Part shown: positions 56 through 61,648 of the stretch, piece by piece
Position numbering within the stretch: position 1 is the first letter of the stretch
Layout of the letters: every line of letters begins with the position of its first letter
DNA from: Cristatella mucedo
Lineage: Eukaryota > Bryozoa > Phylactolaemata > Cristatellidae
Assembly: GCA_009760855.2 (NCBI GenBank)
Contig: WPIO01000050.1
Coordinates: forward strand, 2,852,501 to 2,916,500
Direction of reading: 5' to 3'
Length of the DNA stretch: 64,000 nucleotides
Notes under the pieces: model-generated
Told to the model about the DNA's origin: nothing
Databases searched by the model: none
The model's input: only the letters and a program-made list of their open reading frames with translations
Made by a program: the position numbers and the translations under genes

Positions 56-13238
<13,183 letters not shown>

Positions 13239-20469: not shown

Positions 20470-22855
20470 TTCCTGAATTTCTGTATCTTGCTTCTTGAAT
20501 TCCAGTAGTGTTGTCGCTACCTGTGGTCACCATCCAGATCTCTACTATCTGCAAAGACATCGCTTCATCTTTTCCTGTCAACATTCATTTGGATAACTTA
20601 TCTGACGCATTAAGCACTGATTTTCGTTCGCTGACTCACTCATTGTCTCTTGTGGCTCAAACGTATGGCCCTACTCATATCAAGGGTCACACACTCGACC
20701 AAATTTGTTACTACAACTGCACTTTGTCACCCCTATCATTACCAAATCCGGCTTATCTGATCAAATGCAAATCTCATCCAGTCTACAATGTGTGCCCTCC
20801 TCATCCTCATCTAAAATCACTTGCGAATCGCGAAACTTCAAGACCCTTGACATCGATGCTGTCCGTGCGAGGATATCTGCTTCAGCTCTGCCGCTCAATC
20901 CTCCTTCCGACCTGTCATCATCGTTAGATTGCTTTAACACAACACTAGCTGACGAGTTTGCACCCCAGACTAAGTGCACACTGTGAGCCCTCGCCCAGAC
21001 GGCCGATGGTTTACCACACACATTAAACTAGCTAGGTCTACTAAGCGAAAGCTTGAAAAGCATGCAAAAGATCAGGACAGACTTTTCATCTACAGGCGTA
21101 CCAGGACTACTGTAGTTCGTATCAATTGATCCAAGCAATGGCCAAGTCTAGCTTATATAAAAGAACAGTGTTGAATCACAAATGCACTATCCAAAAATGC
21201 AGACTTCGACGATCAAACATCTCCTTAACTGCTCCCATGTTAGCTCCTTACCTATTGATCCCTATGATGACCTAGCTGATCGCTTTTCTACCTTCTTTGT
21301 AAACAAGATAGACGAGATCAGAGAGTTCGTGCCTAAGATGGCAGCATCCCTCTGGAATCCCGTCCCTCAATTTCATGCAGCACCTCAATGTCTACATTCA
21401 AGCAGGTCACTATAACCATTGTCCTCAAGTTCATATCCCAATCAGAGAAGACTACTAGTATTCTGGACCCTATTCCTACTGTCCTGCTTCAACGATGCGT
21501 CGATCTGCTTCTGCCATGCATAACTAACGTCATAACTATGTTATTAGCCTCGGGTCATGTCCTACCACCTTTCAAAAAGGCTGTGGCCAGGCCACTACTC
21601 AAGAAAGCAATAGACTAAGACTTGATAATACTAGACCAAGAGAACTCGAGCAACTACCGCCCAGTATCCGCTCTACCATTCCTATCAAAGACACTGGAAC
21701 GAGTCGTGGCAAACCAGTGGAATTCATGTATTTAAACTTTGAACCTTGCTAGTACGTTCCAGTCTGGTTTTAGAGCTAATTACTCCACAGAGTGAGCATT
21801 GCTTCTGTTGTACGATGACCTGCATAGAAATGCAGACTTAGGTAGAACAGTAGAATATCTCTGCTTGTTTTGCTCAATCTATCGGCACCATACAATATTA
21901 TTTATTACCAAGTCCTTCTTAAACGCCTCTAATCTCGCCTGGGCATTACTATCACTGCACTGCAATGTTTCAGATCCTATCTCAGTTGGAGACTTCAGAG
22001 TATGGATGTGAATGGCCAAAGATCATCTAAGGAACCTCAGAAGTATGGCGTACTTCGGTGCTCTTTGCTTTTTTCCGTCTTTTTCACAGTGTATGCTCTC
22101 CTTCTTGCCAATGTGATTGCCAAACACAATCTAGGCTTTCACTTCTATGCAGATGACGCTCGGTTGTACCAACGCTTTGAGCCCTCCCAGCAATCTCGCA
22201 CGTCGATTTCTCCCAACCTCCTTGCTGCACATATTGATGACATCTGCACGTGGATGGCAGCAAACCTTCTTAAATTGATTGATAATAAAACCAACTCACT
22301 AGTTATGGGCAAACCGGGTGCGATTCGGAAATTTGAAAGGCTAACGCTCAAAATCAGCTCAGCCAGTGTATCTCCTGTTGAATCTGCACGAAATCTAGGT
22401 GTCCTGTTACCAAGTTACCTTTCGTTAGACGACCACATCAGCTCCACAGCTAAGTCTGCCTACTTTCATCTTCATAACATTTTTAAAATTCTAGCTCATT
22501 TAAACAGAGATACCACATTCAAGTTATTCCATGCATTTGTGAAATCCCTTCCCGACTTCTGTAGCTCACTGTTTGCTAGTAGACTGACACTCGGGCGCTG
22601 ACAGTTGGTGCACAACTCTGCAGCTAGGCTTGTCTGTCGTGAGGTTCTCATCTGCTACAGCACACCACTCGTGCTGACACTGTGCATGCTGCCAGTAACC
22701 AAATTTGCATGCTGACCCTGTGCATGTCACCCCTAACCATGTTATTCATTTTGTTTGTTTTTCAAGCATGATTGCATTTCTCTTTGCAGCAAATGTAAAG
22801 CGCCTAGAAAGAGATTAAGTTCTCTGAGGGCGCTTTATCAAGTACATTATTATTA
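20470..22855 (+). mobile_element. LINE-A, longest copy (endonuclease to tail), broken
   Basis: The endonuclease C-terminal part is visible near 20510-20930 (THIKGHTLDQICYYN), then a linker. The reverse transcriptase has a FYADD active-site box at about 22140-22160. The C-terminal domain is truncated and joined to a 3' UTR and hairpin tail near 22800. Stops and frameshifts are numerous. L2/CR1-like by motif pattern. Confidence 0.8.
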
Positions 22856-33157: not shown

Positions 33158-33418
33158 TCAAGACGGCAGCTTGCTGTCAATGGCCAACGGCCGCCGTCGC
33201 CTCCATTTCGCGAGCAGCTGTCTCATGGCCGTTCGATGGTACTTGCTGGTGAGGAACAGCACCGCAGCGTTGCTCAACGCCGAGCTCTTGCTCAATATGG
33301 CCGGTATCGGAGCTAAGACTGTCGGGAAGCCAGAAATGTCGCCGAAAGCCGCCCAGAAGCTCATGGCGCCGTACGGTGTCCAGCAGATGACGAACGAGAG
33401 GCCGATGAGGGCACCGAC
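33158..33418 (-). CDS. Opsin A exon 5 (TM6-TM7, C-terminus)
   Basis: The acceptor is ATTGCAG|GTC. Contains SFVICWTPYG (TM6), PAILSKSSAL with K330 (TM7), NAAVL in place of NPxxY, then a basic tail and a TGA stop at 33160-33158. Confidence 0.92.
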   Translation of the reverse strand, partial: VGALIGLSFVICWTPYGAMSFWAAFGDISGFPTVLAPIPAILSKSSALSNAAVLFLTSKYHRTAMRQLLAKWRRRRPLAIDSKLPS

Positions 33419-34979
33419 CTGCAATTAGAACGCGGCGGCGGCGGGTCAGGCGACGGGTCGCAAGTCGCCGAAGCGTCGGTCCGCCGGACTCACTCGACTC
33501 GGGGATGAGGAGGCAGCTGCGCGCGAGGCCCGGCGCCGCTGCGTCCATCCGCGAGTGAATGTGATGTAATGTAACGTATCTCCGTCTGTAAGTCCACAAA
33601 GCCACAAAGACTACGTGGGTGCCACACGGAAGAGTTTTGCATAGCCCACTCACAGCGTAAGCGGCTTTCGGTACGCATTCGGCGAGACTGCCCTTCGGCG
33701 AACCGGACCAAGCGCCGCGCCGCCTCGTCCTTCGCCGATTACGTAGCCTCGCAGCGCAATTGAGCGTCAGCGCACTGACGCAAGCAGGCACGGCACTCGA
33801 CGCTCGCCAGCCAGCCAGCCAGCCAGCGCCCCGTCGGAGCGAGCGCCCCACAGCGCTCGCGAGCGGCCGCGCTAGGGGGCGTCGGCGACGGTTAGGACGC
33901 TCGCCTGCGCCCCCTAGCGAGCGAGGCATTCGACGGCTGGCGCCGTGCCATGCTCGCGTCACCAGCGCCCCCTAGCGGGCGAGCGCGTCCGATCCCGATC
34001 GGCCGCGGCGCCGAACTGTCAAGCGCCGTAGACGAAGTAGCGGTCAAAAGCTCGTCGAGCTAACTGGCTCGTCGCTACTGCGCGCCGGCCGAGCTCGTCG
34101 GCCGCTCTAAGCCGCAGCTCGCTCGTCGCCGCCGCCTCACTCGTAGCAGACGACGCGGCAGTGAGCCGCTCGCCAGCTGTTGATTCTCTGCGAGCGCCTC
34201 ATTCGGCTGCCTGGCGGCTGGCGGTCGCCGAAAGCGGCACCCGATCGCAGAGCCGATGCGACGGTCGGCGACATTGGCGACGTAGCTAAGCGTGCGAAGC
34301 GTCGCCTCGCACCGCCACCCCCGCCTCGCTCCTCCGCCGCCGCCGCTACTATTTCGGCGACCCTCACCTTGGTGGTGCGCACGTGGCGGCTGAGGTGGCG
34401 CGTCGCCGACGCGCCGGGCACGGACGAGTAGTGGACGGCGCTGTCAGAGCCACCGTGGCCGCTGGACTGCGTAACGGACTGAGTAGAGCTGTACACGTGA
34501 CGCGTGATCCAGCCGTAGCTCAACAGGATGAGCGACATGGGTATGCATATGGCGGCGATGAACATGGTCAGGACGAACGAGGCGTTGCAGCGGCACGCCC
34601 ACTCGATGGCGCACGCCAGGCCGAACGGCTCTGGGCCGTAGCTGCCCCATGCCCAGAGCGGCAGCGACGACCAGAGGCCGCTATACGCAACGAGGCAGGC
34701 GCACGTGATCGCGACGCTTCGCACCGTGATGAGCCTGGCGGCTAAAAGGGAACGAAGCCTGAGCTCGCGAGCGAGCGACGGCGGCGGCGGCAGGCGAGTG
34801 CGGCGCAGCCCGATTGACGCAAGAGCTAAGCACGTCGGAGGCACGATTGACGCGCAAGCGAAGCAGAGTGATAAGATGCGGCCGCTGCAGTTCAGCCCGT
34901 CGTTCGCGAGGCCAGAACCATTTCGCTTTAAAAAAATATCTACGCACGCACGATTGATTGATTGCTCATACACCGACAT

Positions 34980-35031
<52 letters not shown>

Positions 35032-35780
35032 AGGAGTGAGGGAGAGGGAGGAGTGAGGGAGAGGGAGAGGTGGGCTTGGAAGGCAGAGATAGACTGAGAG
35101 AGAGATGGCAGAAAGAGAGAGTGAGTGAGTGAGGGAGAGAGAGTGGATCGGGCCGCCTGCGGACCACACGACAAGCCGCCACGAAGAAGGGCCCCACTTG
35201 GCTAACCCCCGTCCGCACCGACTCATCGGGGGTGGGTTTGGATGTGACGTTGAGGCCGGTCGAGGCTCAAGATGGCGAGGCGGCGCGTGCATTCGAGCGC
35301 AGCGCGAGCGCTCGAGGGCGGTCGATCGGACGCCGCCACCGCAGCCGAGACTCGGTATCGGCTAGCGATTGGAGGCGAGTGGCCTTCTTAATTGTCACGC
35401 GCAAGGGCCGGCCGTACGTACGACGACAATACCGAGTCCGAGTGCCCCCAGCTAGCGTCTCAGCTTCGCAGGTACTCCCACGGGGAAGCGTCTCCAGGCG
35501 AGACGCCTCCAAGCCGCGCCTAGCCTGTATGCCCACTGTAATGCCTCAGCCGTAAGGTCTTTCGCCGGTGAAGAGATTCTGTCCTCCCGGGGCTGACGTT
35601 TCGTGAGCGAAATAGCGAGTGCTGACAAGCAGCAAAGCGCAGAGAGCCGACGCCCTGATGTGCGATTTGGTCGGCCGTCGCATCCGAGGTACTGCCGCCG
35701 AGGAGGACCGCACGAGGGCAGTGCTCGCGGGGTCTGCGGTGAAAGAGAGAGGGATAGAAGAAGAGAGAACGATAGAGAGG

Positions 35781-35812
<32 letters not shown>

Positions 35813-36172
35813 GACACGGAGAGAGAGAGAGACACAGAGAGAGACAGAGAGACAGAGAGAGACAGAGACAGAGAGAGACAGAGACAGAGAGAGACACATA
35901 CAGAGAGACACACAGAGAGAGATACAGACAGAGACAGACGGAGACGGAGACAGAGAGAAAGAGCGAGAGAGAGACAGAAGACAGAGAGAGAGAGACAGAC
36001 AGACTGACAGAGAGTGAGAGAGAGAGGAGAGGGAGAGAGAGAGAAGGAGCAAGATCTATTGACTTATTAACGGGCGCCCTGATAGAGAGCTCGTCGTCCT
36101 GATAGATAGCCCGAGAAAACGGCCACAGCTCACAAGTTCGCTGCCCGCCCTGCCCCTTCACTCTCCCTCACA

Positions 36173-36211
<39 letters not shown>

Positions 36212-38273
36212 TCTCCACGGAGCACGGAGCCGGGTGAGCGCTCGATCTCGAAGCTTCTCAGCTCTTCTCCAGGCCGCTCTTCTGACCGAGTCTAATACGA
36301 TCAGCGATAACCCCAATGGTAGCACGTGACTCACGAAGCGCCCAATGTGAACTAGATCCGTTCATGCGCACTTTACGTAGCAGCTTACTTGAAATGCGAG
36401 ATCGCACGGCCGAGCGTCCTGCGCTCGCACCTTCTGACTTCCGGGCGCCTGCTCACCGACCCCGGGTGAGGAGGGGGAGGCGGTGCACCTCCTCACATCT
36501 TCCTCTTCCCGACTCCGTCGCGCCGGAGACACACGAGCGACTCTCGTGGTAGCGCTAACGTAAGAGGCGGCAGCGGCGGCGGAAGCCGGTCGCTGCGTTG
36601 GGGCAGCACTGCCGGCTTTAGGTGGTGGCGGCGGCCGGCAATCGGTTTCACGCGTCGCCAGACTCGCGTCAGCGCCTCAGCCGCTGGGCGAGAGGGAAGC
36701 GCGCGACAGAAGTTGGAACCCTCGAAGACGCCGGCGTCTGCGACGGTAGCGACCGCGACAGAGGACGGCCACGGAGGTGGCGGCAGGGGCGCTCGGAGGG
36801 ACGTCAGAGGGCGACGCGGCTGCTGCCCGAGCCCGGCGCCGGGTTCGCGCAGGCAGCGTGCGACTGCCGCTGTAATTGCCGGCGCAATTGGTCGCTCTTT
36901 CTGGCAATCCAAACGATTTATCTCCCGCATCGCAGTGCGGCCGAACGAAGGTTACACGACGACGGCTTCGTTGCGTGCTCACTGTACCGCTACCGCTCTC
37001 GTCGGCTTTCAGTCACCACAACCACGCGTGACCGAATCTTGAGCTTTGCAAAGCGCGTCTTGGCGGCGGCTTGAGCTGCGAGCACGTGCACATGCACACT
37101 CGCATCTGCTGCGAGCGCGATCGTAGCAGATGCGACGGCTGGAGGAGCTGGAGTGGGGGGGAAAGCCAGAAGCCGCGATTAGTCGTCGCCGCGACCGAAC
37201 AACCGAAAATCGGCTGAGCGAAATGCAGACGAACGGCGAGCGCATGGCAACGCAGGCAACTCGGCATCTTCAGCGGCTCGCCTTAACTTCACGCCAATCC
37301 GCCGACTCGCTCTCGGGAGCGATGCCTGCGAGGGGTGAGCGCGGCGCTCCGCGACGAAAAGCGAGTGGCTCGAGGCCCACCCGCGGCATTCCCCCCCACG
37401 GCAGTCGTCTGGTCGATCTGCCGCCGGCGAATTCGCGAATCGCTGCACGAAGCTCGGTCGCCGATCGTCCGCCGAGCGATGCGCATCCGGAAATCCGGGA
37501 TCCGCATCGCTCGCTCGAGAGCCGGCGGCGACGGCGGCGGCGGCGGCGGAGGCGTCGGCGCTGACGCAGCCGCTCGGCGCCTGACGACGGGCGACTCGGT
37601 GCTGCAGCTGGACGCCCCTGGATGCTTCTCACTCTCCGGGGGGTCGACAAAATCTGGCGTCTGGCCAATTCCGCCGTGGCGCTTCCGCAGTGCGGAGCTC
37701 TCGGCGCGCGGAGCCGCGGGAGCAGCAGCGCTGAGCTCTGAGAGCTAGCGCTGAGCGCTCGATCGATGATGGCGGAGCAGCGAGGAGCCCGAGGGTTCCG
37801 TCGAGCGTGCGGCTGGTACTCGCGCGACGGACGATATTACTCGCGTGCCGGAAGCTCGCGCTTCGCGGCGCTAGCGAGTGCTCTCCGATCTCCCGTCGCA
37901 AGGAGCGGTCGCTCCCGCGGCGGCGAGAGATGCTAGCGTAAAGGTCGAGGAGGGCAACACGAAAGGTTCGCCAAGCGCTCGTAAAAAGCTGCTTCCTGAG
38001 AGTTGCCGTGCAAGTCACGCACCGCCCTGAGCCGGATCGGGCTTTGTTCACAGCTGGATGACTTAGCGAAGCACGCGAGGTCGGGTCAGCCGAGCGAGCT
38101 GTGCCTAGCGACAGGATTCGACGCCCTACTAGACACTGCCCATGTACATACGTATTGCGCACATCGCGAAAGTGATTGCACCGGTGATCACCTATGGCTG
38201 CATACCCTACGCGTCCTTGGCAAATATGCATCCTTGTAGCTGGAGCTCTCTCTCTCTCTCTCTCTCAATATAC

Positions 38274-38364
<91 letters not shown>

Positions 38365-40376
38365 TGTGTGTGCGTGTGTGTGTGTGTGCGTGTGTGTGCG
38401 TGTTTGTATATATTTATCAATCCTGCGTCTCTTTGCTTTTTCTCTCGCTTTGTAAACTCTGCTGCCTACACCTATATATATATATATATTCCTCTTCTTC
38501 CCATCACCTTCTCGCGTCAATCCAAGCTTTCCCAAGCGCACGCACGCACGTGCAAGTACTCAGAATCTTACATATCAAAGCGCTCAATCTTTATTGGCAT
38601 CTATTGCTCTCTCTCGCACTCTCTCGCTCTCTTCCTCCCCCGCTCTCTCTCTCTCTCTCACGCTCTCTCTCTTTTCAACGTACATGGTACAGGTAGATGC
38701 ATTTGCTACTACCTGTCCGCAATTTTGTTCCAGGTTGTAATAATAATAATAATAATAATGCACTTGATAAAGCGCGCTCAGAGAACTAAATCTCTTTCTA
38801 GGCGCTTTACATTTGCCGCAAAGGTTAGCTCTGTATAAGCGGTCGGTTACGTCGCTCACGCGCATTCAGTGCATGCTCGCGCGCATTATCAAATCAGCTC
38901 ATGCGCCCGTGCATCGCGCTTTAAAGATGCATCGTGCGTGCGAGCTCCACACAGCCGGCGCACGCCTCAACTTACCGGCATCGGGATAGCAGATGCCGAT
39001 GCACCGCGTGACCGCCATCAACGCTATTGTCATCAGGCCGAGGAAGCCAAAGAAGAAGGCGACAAAGCCGTACCCCGAGCAGCCTGCGACGGAATGAACT
39101 GCGCGCTGCTGCAGACGCCACCCATCGGGGACTGTCGCGCTAGAGCGAAAGTTCGGCTACTCTCATTATTGAACACGGGACTCGCATTGTCGGACGTCAG
39201 ATTCGCATTATCGGACATCAGACCCGCATTATTGCACAGCGTCGAGCCGGCAACGTCGAGCGACAGCGCAGCGGCCGATCGCTATCTGCGCCGCTCGCCG
39301 AGCCCGATTTTGCGCCGCTCCGCAATTGCACGGAAACGCGGTCGGGACCTCGCCCGTGCGGCGACTCAAACTCATTAATCACCTGCACGGCCTCTTAAGG
39401 CCAGGGCGCCAGCTCTGCTAATCAGGGGAGCGTGCGTGCGTGCACCGCAGCCGATACCGCAGCCACCGCAGACGTGCAGGTGGCTCGAGATACATCGATT
39501 CTCTTGGTTAAGAAAGAATGCCCGGCGTCGCATCTTCGCTCGTAAGCCCATGCCGTTGCCATTGCCCCATGTTGCTGCCGCCGCTGCGGCGAAGTGTGCT
39601 CGAAGAGCCGCTGCCGCGGCGGCGTCGCCGCTGCAGCGGCTCTGAGCGGTGCGTGGCAGCGTCCGCTCACCAGAGTCGCCAAAGAGCCATCGCGCCGACA
39701 GAAATGACGGCACCGCCATGGAGTAGGTGGCGATCACGAAGCTTGAGTCGCACGCATTTAGCACGACGATGAGCAGCTGCATCGGCGTCAGCGTCGTGGC
39801 TCGTCGAACCACGACGTAGATGCTCATCGAGTTCGCCGCCACGCTGATGGGTCCTGCCGAATCCGGAAGTAAGCACTAGGGGTGGCTCAAAGCATTCCGT
39901 CGCTCACCGGACGGCTCGCCGTGGGCGGAGCGCCAGCCGCAGCCACCGCTGCGGCAGCGGAACTAGGCACGCGAGCGAGCTCGCGAAGCAGCGGGCGGGC
40001 AGGGGGGGGATTGTCGCCCGACGACCATCGCATCTCGCGCTCGGAAGAAGCAACAGCAGCGCGCGGAGCGTGCGAAAGCGTACCTCGGGAGACGCCGTCA
40101 GGCGCAAAGTGCTGAGGAGGAGGAGGTGCGAGGAGGCAGTTTTACGACTATAGCTGGCGCGGCAGCGAGCCGGCGATACGCACCGATCGCGAGTAGATAG
40201 AGGCCCAGCGCGATGCTCTCCCACGGGGCAATGGAGGAGCTGAACTTGTCGCGCACCTCGCTCTTTGTCGCCGCCGTTGCATTCGCCGAAGGATAGTCGT
40301 CGGCGTCGGCAGCGAAGCTTCGTAGAGTCGTAAACGACGCGAGAGCGCCAGCCGAGCCGTTCCAGTCGGCGGCCAT
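33158..40376 (-). CDS. Opsin A, five exons, 372 residues
   Basis: A light-sensing, retinal-binding seven-helix receptor of the plasma membrane. Segments on the minus strand: 40376-40184, 39853-39671, 39083-38976, 34741-34368, 33418-33158; all junction phases agree. Visible features: two N-terminal glycosylation sites (NGS, NAT), TM1 from about residue 48, a TM2 aspartate in LNACDSS, and disulphide cysteines C127 and C205. The second extracellular loop is SYGPEPFGLACAIEW, CWTP is in TM6, and the Schiff-base lysine is K330 in PAILSK. The bovine E113 position is Tyr (Y130) and the E181 position is Glu (E199), the usual invertebrate counterion arrangement. Odd points: DRY is TRC and NPxxY is NAAVL. 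The loop and TM6 resemble the neuropsin/peropsin (tetraopsin) group, but the class is not certain. Start: ATG at 40376; an in-frame ATG pair at 40409-40404 would add a hydrophobic leader. Confidence 0.88.
33562..33690 (-). mobile_element. LINE-B 3' UTR fragment in opsin A intron 4
   Basis: Minus-strand match to the other LINE-B tails, ending in GATACGTTACATTACATC. Confidence 0.75.
34368..34741 (-). CDS. Opsin A exon 4 (TM4-TM5 and third loop)
   Basis: The acceptor CTTTTAG|CC fits the phase of exon 3; the nearer CCAG at 34735 does not. Holds TM4, the second extracellular loop with C205, TM5 (SFVLTMFIAAICIPMSLILL) and a Ser-rich third loop ending RTTK. The donor is AAG|GTGAGG, phase 0. Confidence 0.9.
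34978..35130. repeat. (GA)n-rich block
   Basis: Purine-rich GA/GGGA repeats in opsin A intron 3. Confidence 0.9.
35131..38250. other. Opsin A intron 3, mostly unassigned GC-rich sequence
   Basis: Holds (GA/GACA)n at about 35740-36045 and (CT)n at 36172-36208. Between 36210 and 38250 it is GC-rich with many spurious frames on both strands and no recognised gene. Confidence 0.5.
35740..36045. repeat. (GA)n/(GACA)n microsatellite
   Basis: About 300 bp purine-rich repeat on the plus strand, including a run of GACA units. Confidence 0.95.
38250..38406. repeat. (CT)n, (TA)n and (GT)n compound microsatellite
   Basis: CT run, then TATATA, then more than 100 bp of GT, in opsin A intron 3. Confidence 0.95.
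38758..38823 (-). mobile_element. LINE-A hairpin tail only
   Basis: Minus-strand hairpin with a TTATTATT-type end at 38740-38758; severe 5' truncation. Lies about 150 bp from the opsin A exon 3 donor. Confidence 0.85.
38976..39083 (-). CDS. Opsin A exon 3 (TM3)
   Basis: The acceptor is GTCGCAG|GC and the donor GCCG|GTAAGT. Starts with the disulphide cysteine (CSGYGFVAFFFGFLG) and ends MAVTRCIGICYPDA, the TM3/loop 2 boundary with TRC in place of DRY. Confidence 0.9.
39671..39853 (-). CDS. Opsin A exon 2 (TM1-TM2)
   Basis: The acceptor is GGCAG|GA and the donor TCTG|GTGAGC. Reads PISVAANSMSIYVVVRR (TM1), then PMQLLIVVLNACDSSF (TM2). Phase 2 in and phase 1 out, matching both neighbours. Confidence 0.88.
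40184..40376 (-). CDS. Opsin A exon 1 (N-terminus, TM1 start)
   Basis: 64 residues from MAADWNGSAG to ALGLYLLAI. The donor is ATCG|GTGCGT, phase 1. Confidence 0.75.
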
Positions 40377-40904: not shown

Positions 40905-42666
40905 AATAATAACAATGCACTTGATAAAGCGCCCTTTGAGAACGCAATCTCTCTCTAGGCGCTTTATATTTACTGCAAAGGGAAACGAGATTGAATGGTG
41001 AGTAATATCATGCTTGATAAACAAACACCATTAATAACATGGTTAGGGGTGACATGCACAGCATCAGCATGCAAATGTATTAGTGGCAGCATGCACAGTG
41101 TCAGCACGAATAAGCACATCAAGGACGAATCACAGGGACCCACTAAATGCTGTCCTAAATAGGTGTGTTTTTAAGTTCTTCTGAAATGTGGTCAGGTCAG
41201 GGAATGTTCTGACGCAGGTCGGGAGGGAGTTCCAGGCTTTGGGAGCATACGAACTAAATTCACGGTCTCCAAAGGATTTAAGGTTTGTACGAGGTATTTG
41301 TAGAATGTTGGATTCCGAAAAGCGGGTGGTACGATGCTTGGCCTGATTGGGGAGTATATCTGAGAGATAGGCTGGAGCCAAAGAATGAAGTGACCTAAAA
41401 GTGAGCGACAAAGCCTTGAAGTCAATCCGTTGCTTGACTGGTAGCCAGTGCAGGTCGGCAAGAAGGGGCGTAATGTAGCAACCGCAACGCTCGCAACAGA
41501 CAAGCCTAGCTGCAGAGTCTTGCACCAGCTGCGATCGCCTAATCAAACATGCTGGTATGCCAGTAAGCAGTGAGTTGCAGAAATCGAGACGGGATGTCAC
41601 GAATGCATGGACCAGCTTGGACGTGGTATCCTTATCTAAACAAGCCCGAATTTTAAGCAATGTTATGTAGCTGAAAATAGGCAGATTTGACTGTGGAGCT
41701 GATATGGTCGTCTAACGAGTGGTCGCTTTGGAATATGACACCTAGATTTCGAGATGATTCAACAGGAGATATGCTGGCAGAGCCAATTTTGAGAGTCAGC
41801 CTTTCCAATCTCTGAATCACACTGGGTTTGCCCATAACTAGTAAGTTAGTTTTATCATCGTTTAGCTTTAGAAAATTGTGCTGCCATCCATGTGCGGATG
41901 TCATCAATACATGCAGCAAGTGAGTTGAGAGAATTTGAGGTGGTCGAAGGCTGGGAGGGATCAAAGCAAAGGTACAACTGAGTGCAAAGCAAAGGTACAA
42001 CTGAGTGTCATCCGCATAGAAGTGAAAGCCTAGATTGTGCTTGGCAATCACATCAGCAAGAGGCAGAGTATAAACCGTGAAAATAACTGGACCTAGCAAG
42101 GAGCCCTGAGGTACCCCATATTTCAGAGGTGCCTCAGATGATCTTTGTCCATTCACGTCAATACTCCGGAGTCTTCCACTGAGATAGGATCTGAATCACT
42201 GCAGAGCAGTGCCAGTGATGCCCAGGCGAGATGAGAGGCGCTCTAGAAGAACTTTGTGATCGATGGTATCAAAAGCTGCGGAAAGATGGAGCAAAATAAG
42301 CTGAGACGCTCTACCCATGCCTGCATTCCTAAGTAGGTAATGTAATGTATCTCCTTCAGTAACTCCAAAAAGTCATAAAGACCATGTAGGTGTTACGCAG
42401 GAGAGTTTTGTATAGCGCACTCACAGCCGAAGCGGCTTTCGGTACGCATTCGGTAAGTCGTTGTATACCCTAAGCAATGCTGACTCTGTGGAGTTATTAG
42501 CTCTAAAGCCAGACTGGAACTTACTAGCAAGGTGTGAGCTTTCGATATATGAGTTCAGCTGGTCCGCTACGACCCGTTCCAGTGTCTTTGGTAGGAATGG
42601 TAGAAGGGAGACTGGGCGGTAGTTGCTTCAGTTCTCTTGGTCTAGTGTCGCTTTCTTGAGAAGTGG
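40905..42666 (-). mobile_element. LINE-A, long copy with RT domain
   Basis: Minus strand: reverse transcriptase with GVPQGSLLGPVIF and FHFYADDTQLYL, then the C-terminal domain (LLADLHWLPVKQRIDFK, APKAWNSLPTC), 3' UTR and hairpin tail at 40920-40970. It has a 22-bp tandem duplication near 41975-42015 and a frameshift around 41870-41890. A LINE-B piece is inserted at 42345-42455, and the copy ends at a (GA)n tract. Confidence 0.88.
42345..42455 (-). mobile_element. LINE-B 3' UTR insertion inside LINE-A
   Basis: Shares GTAATGTAATGTATCTCC and GGCTTTCGGTACGCATTCGG with the other LINE-B tails. It interrupts the LINE-A sequence between CCTAAGTAGG and TCGTTGTATAC. Confidence 0.8.
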
Positions 42667-48529: not shown

Positions 48530-49195
48530 AAAGACTCCGCCTGCTAAATGTCCGCTCGTTCAAAACCAGAGGGTTACTTATCCGCGATCCGGTAGAAACT
48601 GGATGCATTTCTGCTGGCCGGAACGTAGATGACGCCCTGCTTCGGCAGCTTTATATCTCAGACCACCCAACTCGGGTTCACATTCTTTCAGCTCATGCAA
48701 TCTGTCAAGGTTGGTGGCAGGGTTACTATTATTGTCCGTGGATCGTTTATCTGAAAGACATGCGTTTATTCACACGGGCCATCGTCTAAATTGGTTGCAT
48801 TCAGGTTCTCATCAAAGACGGTGCCTCTCACTGTTGTGACATACCAACCTCCTTCCGGCTGCCTAAACATGTTTATAGAGGAGTTTTCGTAATTCATTAC
48901 TAAAATATTTTTGTGTGACAGGCCGTTACTGATTGTATGAGACTTCAACATTCACTTGACCACCCTAGAAACCACCAGGTCTTCCCATCTCTTGAGTGCC
49001 TGGAGAACTTGTCCAATAACTGGTCCAATACGTTATTGATACCCCACACGTCGGTGGCCATAATCCGTATGTGATGCGAGTCTTTTTGACCTGCACCCAG
49101 ACTCCACCGACAGCCTCGATGCCCTCACTGATGCAGTGAACATGACACTTAAGAGTGCTCTTGACAAGCATGCCCCGTGCATTTGACGGGCATGC
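48530..49195 (+). mobile_element. LINE endonuclease remnant
   Basis: LLNVRSFKTRGLLIRDP resembles the start of the AP endonuclease of CR1/L2 elements. Near 49090-49190 DLHPDSTDSLDALTD and LKSALDKHAP match the linker after it. Stops in between. Probably LINE-B or LINE-C. Confidence 0.6.
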
Positions 49196-49640
49196 TTTTC
49201 AAGTGTGTTCCAGTGGAGTCCAGGCTTTAGGATAGTATGAACTAAATGCACGGTCTCCGAAGAATTTGAGGTTTGTACGAGGTTTAAGTAAATAGTTAGA
49301 TTCCGGGACCTAAAATTGAGTGACAAAACCTTGAAGTCGATGCGTTGCATGACTGGTATCCAGTGCAGGCCGGCGAGAAGTGGAGAGATGTGGCAACTGC
49401 GATGATCACGACAGACAACCCTGGCTGCAGAGTTTGACAGCCGCTGTAAGTGCCTGATTGCCCAGGCCGGTAGGCCTGCAAGCAGTGAGTTATAGAAGTC
49501 AAGACGGGATGTCAGAAATGCATAGACCCAACTTAGATGTGGTACCCTTGTCTAAACAACCCCGAATCTTAGCAAAACAATGTAGCTGAAAGTAGGCAGA
49601 CTTGATTGTGGAGCTGATGCGGTCGTCTAATGAAAGGCTT
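49195..49640 (-). mobile_element. LINE-A fragment
   Basis: Minus-strand C-terminal reverse-transcriptase region with internal deletions; LQPGLSVV, RIDFKVLSL and LVQTSNSSETVHLV landmarks. Confidence 0.75.
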
Positions 49641-52260: not shown

Positions 52261-53175
52261 TTGCGGCTTACCAATTGAGATTCTTTTTCTAAAAATGTAA
52301 AACGGCCTACTAGGAACTTGGTTCTAATGGAGTAATACATACATTTGTGTTTCTTTCGAATATTTCTGTAATTATTGTTGGCATCCATGCAAGGCTTTGA
52401 AACTCGATCCAGTAAAGACTCTTTGAAAAATTTACCTTTTTGGTGGATTAAAAACTGCAATCATGTTAGAAGAATTGCGATCAATCTATTGGGCACAGCT
52501 GCTTAATGTGCGTGGTCTGCAATCGCTTCGTGGCGAGACAGTAAATAATAATTTCACAACGGAAGCGCTTATAAGGGAATATTTTAGAACCAGAGAGGCT
52601 CGATGATCAAAGGAGAATCCTAGTAAAAGAACGTGCATTCGGATACTGTTAGATAATGTGAGACCAAGAGAGGTACATCCTTCTGGACCGGGAAGCCATC
52701 ACAAGGATTTACGTCAATTTAGGTCCGCCGACTTTAATTATTACTGTCGACCCAAAATCGTGTACACACGGAAGGAGGCATAACTTTCAGATCTTTCCAG
52801 CCAGTGGGAGATATTACCACTTACTCAAAGATATACGAACCCGTTTTTTAAGTTTACCATCAAGGAGCGATAGCGATCTTGGGCGATACATACATTTCAC
52901 AATTATCGTTAGCATTAATTAAAGGCACTTATGGACACCGGAACCGTTTCGCTTCAGTTGCACAGTAGCTCGGTTTTCGTCAGTGTATCTTGAGATACCA
53001 GTCGGCCAAGAAGCCCAGGAAGTGGGTGCGTAAGAAAAGCCGTGGGATTTGACGTAGGTTAAAGGACTAGCTAAGTGACAGGATTGAGAGGAATGGGTAA
53101 TGTGGGGCAAGAGGACCGCGACTTTTCTACGCGGTTGGTCTCTCACGTACCTGATCCGCATTAATCAAGCAACAG
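52261..53175. other. Unassigned
   Basis: Nothing recognised. Confidence 0.4.
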
Positions 53176-53895
53176 CAGGCAATATACACACAAAAGCTCA
53201 CCAGGCCTACCGGCCAGCTACCTACCAGCCAGGCCTACCGGCATGTGTAATCAGTCACTTACAGCTGGTGCCAAACTCTACAGCTAGACTTGTGTGTCAC
53301 GAGCGTCGCAGTTGTCATATCACACCACTTCTCGCCAACCTGCACTGGCTACCAGTCAATCAACGGATCGATTTTAAGGTTTTGTCGCTCACTTTTAGGT
53401 CACTTCATTCTTTGGCTCCAGCTATCTCTCAGATCTACTCCCCCATCACGCCAAGCTTCGTACCACCCGCTTTTCGGAATCTAGCTGTTTACCAATACCT
53501 CGTACAAACCTCAAATCCTTTGGAGACCGCGCATTTAGTTCGTACGCTCCCAAAGCCTGGAACTCACGCCTGACTTGCATCACAACATCTCCTGACTTGA
53601 CCACATTTAAAAAAAAAATTAAAAACGCACCAATTTGGAACAGCATTGAGTGGGTCCCTGTGATTAGTCCTTGATGTGCTTATGCGTGCTGACACTGTGC
53701 ATGCTGCCACTAACCACATTTGCATGCTGACCCTGTGCATGTCACCCATAACCATATTATTCATTTTGTATGTTTTCAAGCATGATTTTACTCCCATTCA
53801 ATTGCATTTTCCTTTGCAGCAGATGTAAAGCGCCTAGAAAGAGATTGAGTTCTCTGAGGGCGGTTTATCAAGCGAATTATTATTGTTATTATTAT
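53176..53895 (+). mobile_element. LINE-A 3' half
   Basis: C-terminal reverse-transcriptase blocks (LLANLHWLPVNQRIDFK, LHSLAPAISQIYS after a shift), 3' UTR, hairpin near 53826, ATT-rich end. Confidence 0.88.
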
Positions 53896-53974
53896 CACTA
53901 TTATAAGAATAGTATATTCGCTTCCCACATTCACTCTAGCACTAGTCTCACTCCGCATATGGGAATACTCCGCC

Positions 53975-55505
53975 TATGAGCTGGCTTTAGAGCTAATCAC
54001 TCCACAGAGTCAGCATTGCTTCGGGTATACAACGACCTACTTAGGAATGCAGGCATGGGTAGAGTGTCTCTGCTTGTTTTGCTTGATCTTTCGGCAGCTT
54101 TTGATACCATCGATCACAAAGTTCTTCTAGAGCGCCCCTCATCTCGCCTGGGCATCACTGGCACTGCTCTGCAGTGGTTCAGGTCCTATCTCAGTGGGAG
54201 ACTCCAGAGTATTGACGTGAATGGACAAAGATCCTCTGAAGTACCTCTGAAATATGGAGTACCTCAGGGCTCCGTGCTAGGTCCGGTTCTTTTCACGGTT
54301 TATACTCTGCCTCTTGCTGATGTGATTGCCAAGCACAATCTAGGCTTTCACTTCTATGCGGATGACACTCAGTTGTACCTTTGCTTTGATCCCTCCCAGC
54401 CTTCGAGCACCTCAAATTCTCTAAACTCACTAGCCGCATGCATTGATGACATCCGCACATGGATGGCAGCACAATTTTCTATAACTTAACGATGATAAAA
54501 CTAACTTATTAGTTATGGGCAAACCCAGTGTGATCCAGAGATTGGAAAGGCTGACTCTCAAAATTGGCTCTGCCAGCATATCTCCAGTTGAATCAGCTCG
54601 AAATCTAGGTGTCATATTCCAAAGCGACCTCTCGTTAGACGACCATATCAGCTCCACAGTCAAATCAGCCTATTTTCAGCTTCATAACATTGCTAAAATT
54701 AGGGCTTGTTTAGATAAAGATACCACGTCAAAGTTGGTCCATGCATTCGTGACATCCCGTCTCGACTTCTGCAACTCACTGCTTATTGGCCTACCAGCAT
54801 GTGCGATCAGGCGATTGCAGCTGGTGCAAAACTCTGCAGCTAGGCATGTCTGTCGTGAGCGTCGCAGTTGCCACATTACTCCACTTCTCGCCGACCTGCA
54901 CTGGCTACCAGTCAAGCAACGGATTGACTTCAAGGTTTTGTCGCTCACTTTTAGGTCCCTTCATTCTATGGCTCCAGCCTATCTCTCAGATATACTACCC
55001 CATCAGGCCAAGCATCGTACCACCCGCTTTTCGGAATCCAACAGTCTAGAAATACCTCATACAAACCTTAAATCCTTTGAAGACCGTGCATTTAGTTCAT
55101 ATGCTCTCTCCCAAAGCCTGAAACTCCCTCCCGACCTGCGTCAGAACATCCCCTGACCTGACCACATTTCAAAGGAACCTAAAAACACACCTATTTATGA
55201 CAGCATTTAGTGGGTCCCTGTGATTCGTCCTTGATGTGCTTGTTCGTGCTGACACTGTGCATGCTGCCACTAACCACATTTGCATGCTGACCCTGTGCAC
55301 GTCACCCCTAACCATATTATTCATTTCGTTTGTTTTTCAAGCATGATTTTACTTACCATTCAATTGCATTTCACTTTACAGCAAATGTAAAGCGCCTAGA
55401 GAGAGATTAAGTTCTCTGAGGGCGCTTTCTCTATTAGGGCGCTTTATCAAGTGCCATTTGCCGGCCCGATTATTAGTATTATTATTATTATTATTATTAT
55501 TATAA
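53975..55505 (+). mobile_element. LINE-A, best-preserved reverse transcriptase
   Basis: RT blocks in order: VLLDLSAAFDTIDHKVLLER, LQWFRSYLSGRLQSIDVNGQ, GVPQGSVLGPVLFTVYTLPL and FHFYADDTQLYL with the catalytic YADD. A frameshift at about 54470 follows, then the C-terminal domain continues in another frame to about 55156. The 3' UTR ends in the hairpin and (ATT)n. The 5' half with the endonuclease is missing. Confidence 0.92.
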
Positions 55506-57401: not shown

Positions 57402-57821
57402 CTAGGCGCAGTCCGCGTGCGGCAGCGGTGGCGTCGGCGGCGTCGGCGGCGTCGGCGGCGTCGGCGGCGTCGGCGGCGTCGGCGGCGTCGGCGGCGTCGG
57501 CGGCGTCGGCGGCGTCGGCGGCGTCGGCGGCGTCGGCGGCGTCGGCGGCGTCGGCGGCGGCGTCGGCGGCAGGGGATCTCTTGACTCCTCTCGGGCTGGC
57601 CGTCCGCGCATGAGCAGTCGTGACTTGATGGCTCGCATGAGCCGCTCGTTGGTGAGCAAGTAGAGAATCGGATTCAGAAGCACGGAGGTCTTGCACATCG
57701 TGGCCGGTATTGCCGTCATCACGAGCGATATGTCCTCGGGGTTCCCGAACGCGGACCAGAAGCTCACGACGGCGTACGGCGACCAGCAGACGATAAAGGA
57801 CGCGCTCAGCAGGAAGCCACG
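57402..57821 (-). CDS. Opsin B last exon (TM6-TM7 and tail), gene partial
   Basis: 139 residues plus TAG. The acceptor TTTTGCAG|CGT is phase 0, the same position as in opsin A exon 5. SFIVCWSPYAVVSFWSAFG is TM6 and the following loop. TM7 is PATMCKTSVLLNPILYLL with the Schiff-base lysine at exon residue 44 (also 44 in opsin A) and an intact NPxxY (NPILY). After ESRDPL the tail becomes Pro-Pro-Thr repeats encoded by a 9-bp minisatellite. Upstream exons were not found between 57822 and 64000; they may lie beyond the edge, or this may be a stranded exon. Confidence 0.88.
   Translation of the reverse strand, partial: RGFLLSASFIVCWSPYAVVSFWSAFGNPEDISLVMTAIPATMCKTSVLLNPILYLLTNERLMRAIKSRLLMRGRPAREESRDPLPPTPPPTPPTPPTPPTPPTPPTPPTPPTPPTPPTPPTPPTPPTPPTPPLPHADCA
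57429..57570. repeat. (GGCGGCGTC)n minisatellite inside opsin B
   Basis: About 15 units of 9 bp with one unit variant; in frame with opsin B as (PPT)n on the minus strand. Confidence 0.97.
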
Positions 57822-58091
57822 CTGCAAAATTAATAGGAATTATTATTAGTAATCATTCTAGTAATTATAATATATATATATATATTATAAGTAATATATG
57901 TAATATATTTGAATTACTATTCTATCGACAGTGAAAACAGACCTCTGGATTGCAACCCAAAAGTAGCACCTCAATGGGTACTCCTCCCAGGTCACTACTA
58001 TACACACTGAAAATGAAGCAGGTCAAGAGTCAAGTGATAGCGTCAGCACGCACAAGCTTACAAAAGACTGTTCACATAGACTAGACTAGTC

Positions 58092-58284
58092 CGGTGGTTC
58101 TCAACCTTCCTAATGCCGTGACCCTTTAATACAGCTCTTCATGTTGTGGTGACCCCAACCAACCATAAAATTATTGTGTGCAAAATGTGGAAATGCGTGT
58201 TTTCCGATGTTCTTGGGCGATACCTGTGAAAGGGCCGTTCGATTCGCATAAGGGTCGCGAACCGCAGGTTGAGAACTACCACTG
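58092..58284 (+). mobile_element. SPIN-like hAT miniature element
   Basis: Left end CGGTGGTTCTCAACCTTCC and right end GGTTGAGAACTACCACTG form terminal inverted repeats. Internal blocks GTGACCCTTTAATACAG, GTTGTGGTGACCCC and TGTGAAAGGG match the SPIN (space invader) hAT family as I remember it. About 190 bp and no transposase. Flanking 8-mers GACTAGTC and GACCAAAC are a possible decayed duplication (5 of 8). Confidence 0.82.
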
Positions 58285-58749
58285 GACCAAACGCTTTGAG
58301 GTACGCGGAGGTTTTTCAGCTCTTTTTTAATGCCCTCAAGTCAAGAGGACATCGTGAAGTGAGTCGGCTGTGAAATTTCTGACTTCGGGAAGCATACAAA
58401 CGGAAGGCTTTGTCGTATTACAAACTGCAAGCCTTCGGGTGGAACTCCACAAGAAAAAGAGGTCCTCAGCATCCAATGGTCCGTGATGAGCCGCGATGCC
58501 AAGTAGGAAAACCTCTGCTATTTTTATAAAGTAATTGGCTCGCTGCTCGGCGTGTTCGCGTGCGCGCGCGTGCTTGTTGCAAAGAGCCACTGCCTTTCCT
58601 TGAGCTTTCCTTTGCGCTCTTTTCGCTATTTGAATAGCTCGAACGCGAGCGACACGTAGCGGCGTACTGCGGATCCCTGTGTGCAGTGGGCCAAACAGAG
58701 GCGGAAAAAATTGGGACGCCGTTAAGTTCGTCTGAAATCACCGCGTGCA

Positions 58750-61119: not shown

Positions 61120-61648
61120 GATCCAGACTTCAAGGTTTTGTCGCTCACTTTTAGGTCCCTTCATTCTATGGCTCCAACCTATCTCTCAGATATACTCCCC
61201 CATTAGGCCAAGCATCGTACCACCCGCTTTTCGGAATCCAACAGTCTACAAATACCTTGTACAAACCTCAAATCCTTTGGAGATCGTGCATTTAGTTCAT
61301 ATGCTCCCAAAGCCTGGAACTCCCTCCCGACCTGCGTCAGAACATCCCCTGACCTGACCACATTTAAAAGGAACTTAAAAACACACCTATTTAGGACAGC
61401 ATTTTGTGGGTCCCTGTGATTCGTCCTTCACGTGCTTATGCGTGCTGACACTGTGCATGCTGCTACTAACCACATTTGCATGCTGACCCTGTGCATGTCA
61501 ACCCTAACCATATTATTCAGTTTGTTTGTTTTTCAAGCATGATTTTACTTACTATTCAATTGCATTTCCCTTTGCAGCAAATGTAAAGCGCCTAGAAAGA
61601 GATTAGGTTCTCTGAGGGCGCTTTATCAAGTGCATTATTATTATTATT
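61120..61648 (+). mobile_element. LINE-A 3' fragment
   Basis: C-terminal RT remnant, 3' UTR, hairpin near 61585-61630, (ATT)n. Confidence 0.88.

Follow-up and report, generated by a model that had tools for sequence, protein, structure and literature searches.

The 193-bp sequence at positions 58092 to 58284 of the window (the whole 64,000-nucleotide stretch of DNA that was analyzed) is confirmed as a SPIN-type nonautonomous hAT element (MITE). The original prediction of a SPIN-like hAT element is supported by a genomic family consensus, by the ends and internal blocks, and by 8-bp target-site duplications, the SPIN reference being a working consensus. Ends and blocks are shared among copies, target duplications are present at the family level, and the copies have decayed and are spread over many contigs. 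The element very probably represents a nonautonomous SPIN transposon, mobilized in trans, that belongs to a shortened subfamily and was acquired horizontally by a lophotrochozoan lineage. SPIN, which we take to belong to the Buster group of the hAT superfamily, is a model case of DNA jumping between distant animals and is best known from mammals and reptiles.

Positions of the element, its ends and flanks, and the opsin exons in the window
Feature	Position	Strand	Basis or remark
SPIN-type hAT MITE, 193 bp	58092..58284	+ (orientation follows family consensus)	One among the 40 copies scored in the genome
Left terminal inverted repeat, CGGTGGTTCTCAACC	58092..58106	+	Family consensus CAGTGGTTCTCAACC; 1 mismatch versus CAGNGGTTCTCAACC
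Right terminal inverted repeat, + strand AGGTTGAGAACTACCACTG	58266..58284	.	3-bp insertion versus consensus end GGTTGAGAACCGCTG
Left flank GACTAGTC	58084..58091	.	Candidate decayed 8-bp target-site duplication (5/8)
Right flank GACCAAAC	58285..58292	.	Candidate decayed 8-bp target-site duplication (5/8)
Last exon (TM6-TM7, presumed retinal lysine) of neuropsin/Opn5-like opsin gene	57597..57821	-	tblastn, human neuropsin
Exons of the other neuropsin-like opsin gene	39854-39669, 39108-38953, 34778-34488, 33421-33200	-	tblastn, human neuropsin and window exons

The inverted repeats of the window copy pair at 58093-58107 and 58266-58280 (15 nt, 93% complementary), and its first bases are CGG, versus the CAG start expected of hAT terminal inverted repeats. 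Its flanking 8-mers are equal at five of eight positions; among 255 end placements tried, five gave 6/8 agreement and none gave 7. Given this 5/8 agreement and the insertion at the right end, target duplication is evidenced at the level of the family. With up to 3 mismatches allowed, the 15-base end motif had 6 matches in the window, where 5.45 are expected by chance; being no more frequent than that, it is no evidence by itself. The 64-kb window yielded no other copy, the next match to the element and its flanks measuring 16 bp. Scans for Rfam families and tRNAs found nothing in the window, and Pfam assigned a hAT family to none of the seven window open reading frames (ORFs) or exons that were scanned.

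The original prediction had suggested looking for other copies in the genome. The element was searched against 572 Mb in 688 contigs of the window's assembly, which is possibly partial. The first look gave 2109 candidates, of which 40 were scored; these copies lie on 28 contigs that reach 24.8 Mb. All 40 scored copies, including that of the window, were aligned, and their majority consensus is 187 bp long (CAGTGGTTCTCAACC ... GGTTGAGAACCGCTG) and ends in short terminal inverted repeats that start with CAG, a feature of hAT elements.

With ends placed by the consensus, the flanking 8-mers were equal at seven or eight of eight positions in 23/39 other copies, versus 28/1482 mispaired controls, in which left and right flanks were taken from different copies; the 8-bp target-site duplication of hAT elements is therefore found at the family level. 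Agreement was complete in 10 copies, 7/8 in 13, 6/8 in 5, and 5/8 in 3, with a low tail of 3/8 (3 copies), 2/8 (3 copies), 1/8 (1 copy), and 0/8 (1 copy). The 11 copies at ≤5/8 were all retained in the count and none was dropped; in some (e.g., L005 and L014), an end may have been lost or misplaced. Target position 4 was T in 33 and position 5 was A in 34 of the 39 copies, and the family target looks like nTnTAGAn. The central T and A fit what we take to be the SPIN target preference, a central TA.

Twenty 10-kb regions at fixed positions contained one further copy (K2P, 0.106), with part of its left end missing. Extrapolation of one copy per 200 kb gives ~2,900 copies in 572 Mb. Resting on a single event, this estimate carries a very large error; its order of magnitude matches that of the 2109 candidates, of which almost all were unscored. 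The shortened derivative probably totals hundreds to thousands of copies. At a K2P distance of 0.104 from the family consensus, the window copy has decayed by about 10%; the 39 other copies, all best matches, averaged 0.060 (0.052 at non-CpG sites). These figures are biased low because the copies behind the consensus were picked for likeness to the window copy, a selection from which the copy in the fixed-position regions is free.

Assignment to SPIN relies on a working SPIN_NA consensus and not on a repeat-library sequence. The window element aligned with this reference with a score of 191 and 161/187 aligned bases identical; the highest scores were 30 in 1,000 dinucleotide shuffles and 32 in 652 further pieces of the window, each 193 bp long. 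The remaining differences are a central gap and two 3-bp insertions. The family consensus matches the reference at 79/81 positions in the left block and 81/81 in the right, together 160/162. The reference was fixed after the window copy was known and before any other genomic copy was. The window copy and the reference disagree at 18 sites of the end blocks, and at 17 of these the consensus has the SPIN base; the working reference is therefore not a mere echo of the window copy.

The center of the consensus is unlike that of the SPIN_NA reference and 38 bp shorter. Together with the provisional nature of the reference, this could favor a different hAT family (e.g., OC1, hAT1, or an unnamed one) merely with SPIN-like termini, and CAGNGGTTCTCAA-like ends are common to many hAT families. 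Such a family is nevertheless unlikely, as the match goes well beyond the 15-bp repeat, at 79/81 and 81/81 positions of the two ends. Nor is the differing center taken as excluding SPIN, because MITE centers vary within a family; a shortened MITE with its own center would instead mark a separate SPIN subfamily. A text search of the literature for SPIN end and core words returned papers that, in the parts available, were not about SPIN. No copies were found in viral (4 patterns), prokaryotic (2 patterns), plasmid, or phage sequence collections, an absence that says little about animals because of what those collections contain.

The host is probably a lophotrochozoan invertebrate, as suggested by its Hox genes. 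A query with an Antennapedia-type homeodomain gave 24 matches in the genome, four of them above 85%. Two of these four, the Lox5-like homeodomains L069 on contig C665 (closest PDB match, Antennapedia) and L070 on C221, read on into NIAKLTGPN, and the KLTGP motif after the Lox5 homeodomain is presumably a lophotrochozoan signature. The other two are Hox4-like, one near each Lox5-like gene (L071 on C665 and L072 on C221), and a Post-like gene (L073) is in line on C665, these names being given by motif; neighboring Hox matches on the two contigs are 110 to 295 kb apart. As Lox5-like and Hox4-like genes occur on both contigs, this probable lophotrochozoan has at least two Hox clusters. Paired clusters are a sign of cluster or genome duplication, and some gastropods have duplicated Hox clusters. 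The available portion of one review describes protostomes with one Hox cluster and Hox gene duplicates in clitellate annelids and flatworms (PMC5831810), and the KLTGP motif is absent from that portion.

A jawless vertebrate host (lamprey or hagfish), which would turn the case into a vertebrate one, is very unlikely. Lamprey was an early idea that came from GC content, GC3, and CT repeats. GC content is 47.1% in the 20 fixed-position regions (CpG observed/expected ratio, 0.83) and GC3 is 0.82 in opsin exons, which fits the 40 to 50% genomic GC and 70 to 90% GC3 given for lamprey in the part of the source available (PMC3141671), and more than one Hox cluster would also suit a lamprey. Protein searches of the same 572 Mb argue against it, short of proof as the genome may be partial. 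A lamprey hemoglobin query found no match, an empty answer that proves nothing alone; lamprey VLRB gave 39 matches, the best at only 47%, in LRR/TLR-like frames, and of two loci inspected, one resembled a Toll-like receptor and the other a Slit-like piece (names by eye). Lamprey rhodopsin gave 47 matches, with opsin-type exons, as judged by eye, at 29 to 38% and none near a vertebrate visual opsin. These searches, together with the two Lox5-type genes with KLTGP, led us to reject the lamprey. The invertebrate host of the original prediction thus gains indirect support from the presumed Lox5 signature and from the lack of close matches to lamprey proteins. Several LRR open frames of ~590 to 910 amino acids on contig C58, among the VLRB matches, and one of 873 amino acids on contig C270 (L061) have the look of Toll-like receptors.

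The renown of SPIN in tetrapods might point to SPIN-bearing vertebrate DNA within an invertebrate assembly, and a contaminant contig was the circumstance that the original prediction had named against itself. Contamination is, however, most improbable: the scored copies are spread over 28 contigs of a single assembly, some as long as 24.8 Mb, a further copy lies among the 20 fixed-position regions, and the window copy adjoins an opsin exon with relatives on the same contig. Vertical inheritance from a bilaterian ancestor, in favor of which nothing was found, deserves practically no credence in view of noncoding ends that match the working tetrapod SPIN reference at 160/162 positions though the copies have drifted by 6 to 10%, and of the reportedly patchy distribution of SPIN.

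The element is located ~270 bp upstream of the last exon of a neuropsin-like opsin gene. This short exon matched human neuropsin by tblastn (E value, 2e-12; 40% identity) and is 38% identical to the last exon of the other opsin gene in the window; it had no Pfam or PDB match, while Pfam 7tm_1 matched one opsin piece below the curated cutoff. The element probably sits in an intron of the gene, a position that we infer because the preceding exon was not found. The two opsin genes adjoin in the window on the minus strand (33200-39854 and 57597-57821). The lamprey rhodopsin query located another opsin-type exon on the window's contig (C453:2960942-2961151), and opsin-type exons are also grouped on contigs C581 and C441; opsin clusters may therefore be expanded in this genome. 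Just past the 3' end of the homology of the last exon, a 9-bp repeat (CGGCGGCGT) spans 57426-57568 (15.9 copies, 97% matches).

Elsewhere in the window, fragmentary copies of an apparent non-LTR retrotransposon occupy 21933-22601, 41130-42195, 49033-49551, and 53088-55156, and Pfam RVT_1 matched one (53980-54489) of four retrotransposon-like ORFs scanned. A 38-bp unit (TGCATGCTGACAC.GTGCATGC...) recurs in similar copies as a doublet at 3722-3797, 53683-53758, and 61439-61514; the doublet at 53683 has a reverse-transcriptase-like ORF on either side and could belong to a LINE. An ORF at 5505-5963 (minus strand), with a C2H2-like finger and a coiled-coil-like stretch, presumably resembles DZIP1.

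hAT MITEs are mobilized by the transposase of a full-length relative: the enzyme binds the MITE ends, cuts the element out, and joins it to a target with an 8-bp stagger. The MITE described here would carry only the terminal and subterminal sequences recognized by SPIN transposase. The SPIN family would have arrived in the lophotrochozoan lineage by horizontal transfer, and transposase from a full-length element elsewhere would excise the MITEs in trans and insert them at nTnTAGAn with duplication of the 8-bp target. In this way the shortened 187-bp derivative with its own center could have multiplied in the genome, and the window copy would have inserted near the last opsin exon, probably in an intron, and then decayed by about 10%.

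Horizontal transfer of SPIN between very distant animals is inferred because noncoding ends agree at 160/162 positions with the working tetrapod SPIN reference across a split of >500 million years, while copies within the genome have drifted by 6 to 10%; the working reference and general knowledge both enter this argument. SPIN (SPACE INVADERS) hAT transposons and SPIN_NA MITEs are known from tetrapods, and SPIN has reportedly been found also in a snail, Lymnaea stagnalis, and in a bug, Rhodnius prolixus, where it was read as horizontal transfer. As SPIN in a snail is already known, the present case extends a known pattern.

According to the portions of the literature available, SPIN was transferred into several mammals 15 to 46 million years ago (PMC5857283), the painted turtle has 385 SPIN elements (PMC4054807), and transposons of R. 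prolixus, left unnamed there, share >98% identity with transposons of opossum and squirrel monkey (PMC5791352). For lampreys, the pages available report Chapaev and not SPIN (PMC4079192). The literature sampled, in searches not aimed at lophotrochozoan hosts, held no report of SPIN in lamprey or in the present host.

On this evidence, the case concerns a known kind of element, in its own MITE subfamily, in a possibly new host. We tentatively suggest, at somewhat less than even odds, that SPIN separately invaded a lophotrochozoan that has duplicated Hox clusters, in an event not reported before that built the shortened MITE subfamily and could link invertebrates to the tetrapod waves of SPIN. 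An invertebrate that combines long contigs with a high-copy SPIN subfamily would provide many insertions for asking when transfer took place, whether it happened once or repeatedly, and which animals may have been the carriers.

Among known systems, tetrapod SPIN and SPIN_NA share with the present family the terminal inverted repeats and the 81-bp blocks at both ends (160/162 versus the working consensus), the high copy number of the MITEs, and the target duplications of 8 bp that have TA at their center. The present MITE differs in its center, is 38 bp shorter, and lives in a host without a tetrapod look. The SPIN elements of L. stagnalis and R. prolixus resemble it in their invertebrate hosts and in their reading as horizontal transfer, whereas the genomes of those hosts are AT-rich, with ~34 to 38% GC, compared with 47.1% (20 regions) here; the present host is therefore probably neither species. 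TcBuster and other Buster-group hAT elements are alike in their 8-bp targets with the pattern nTnnnnAn.
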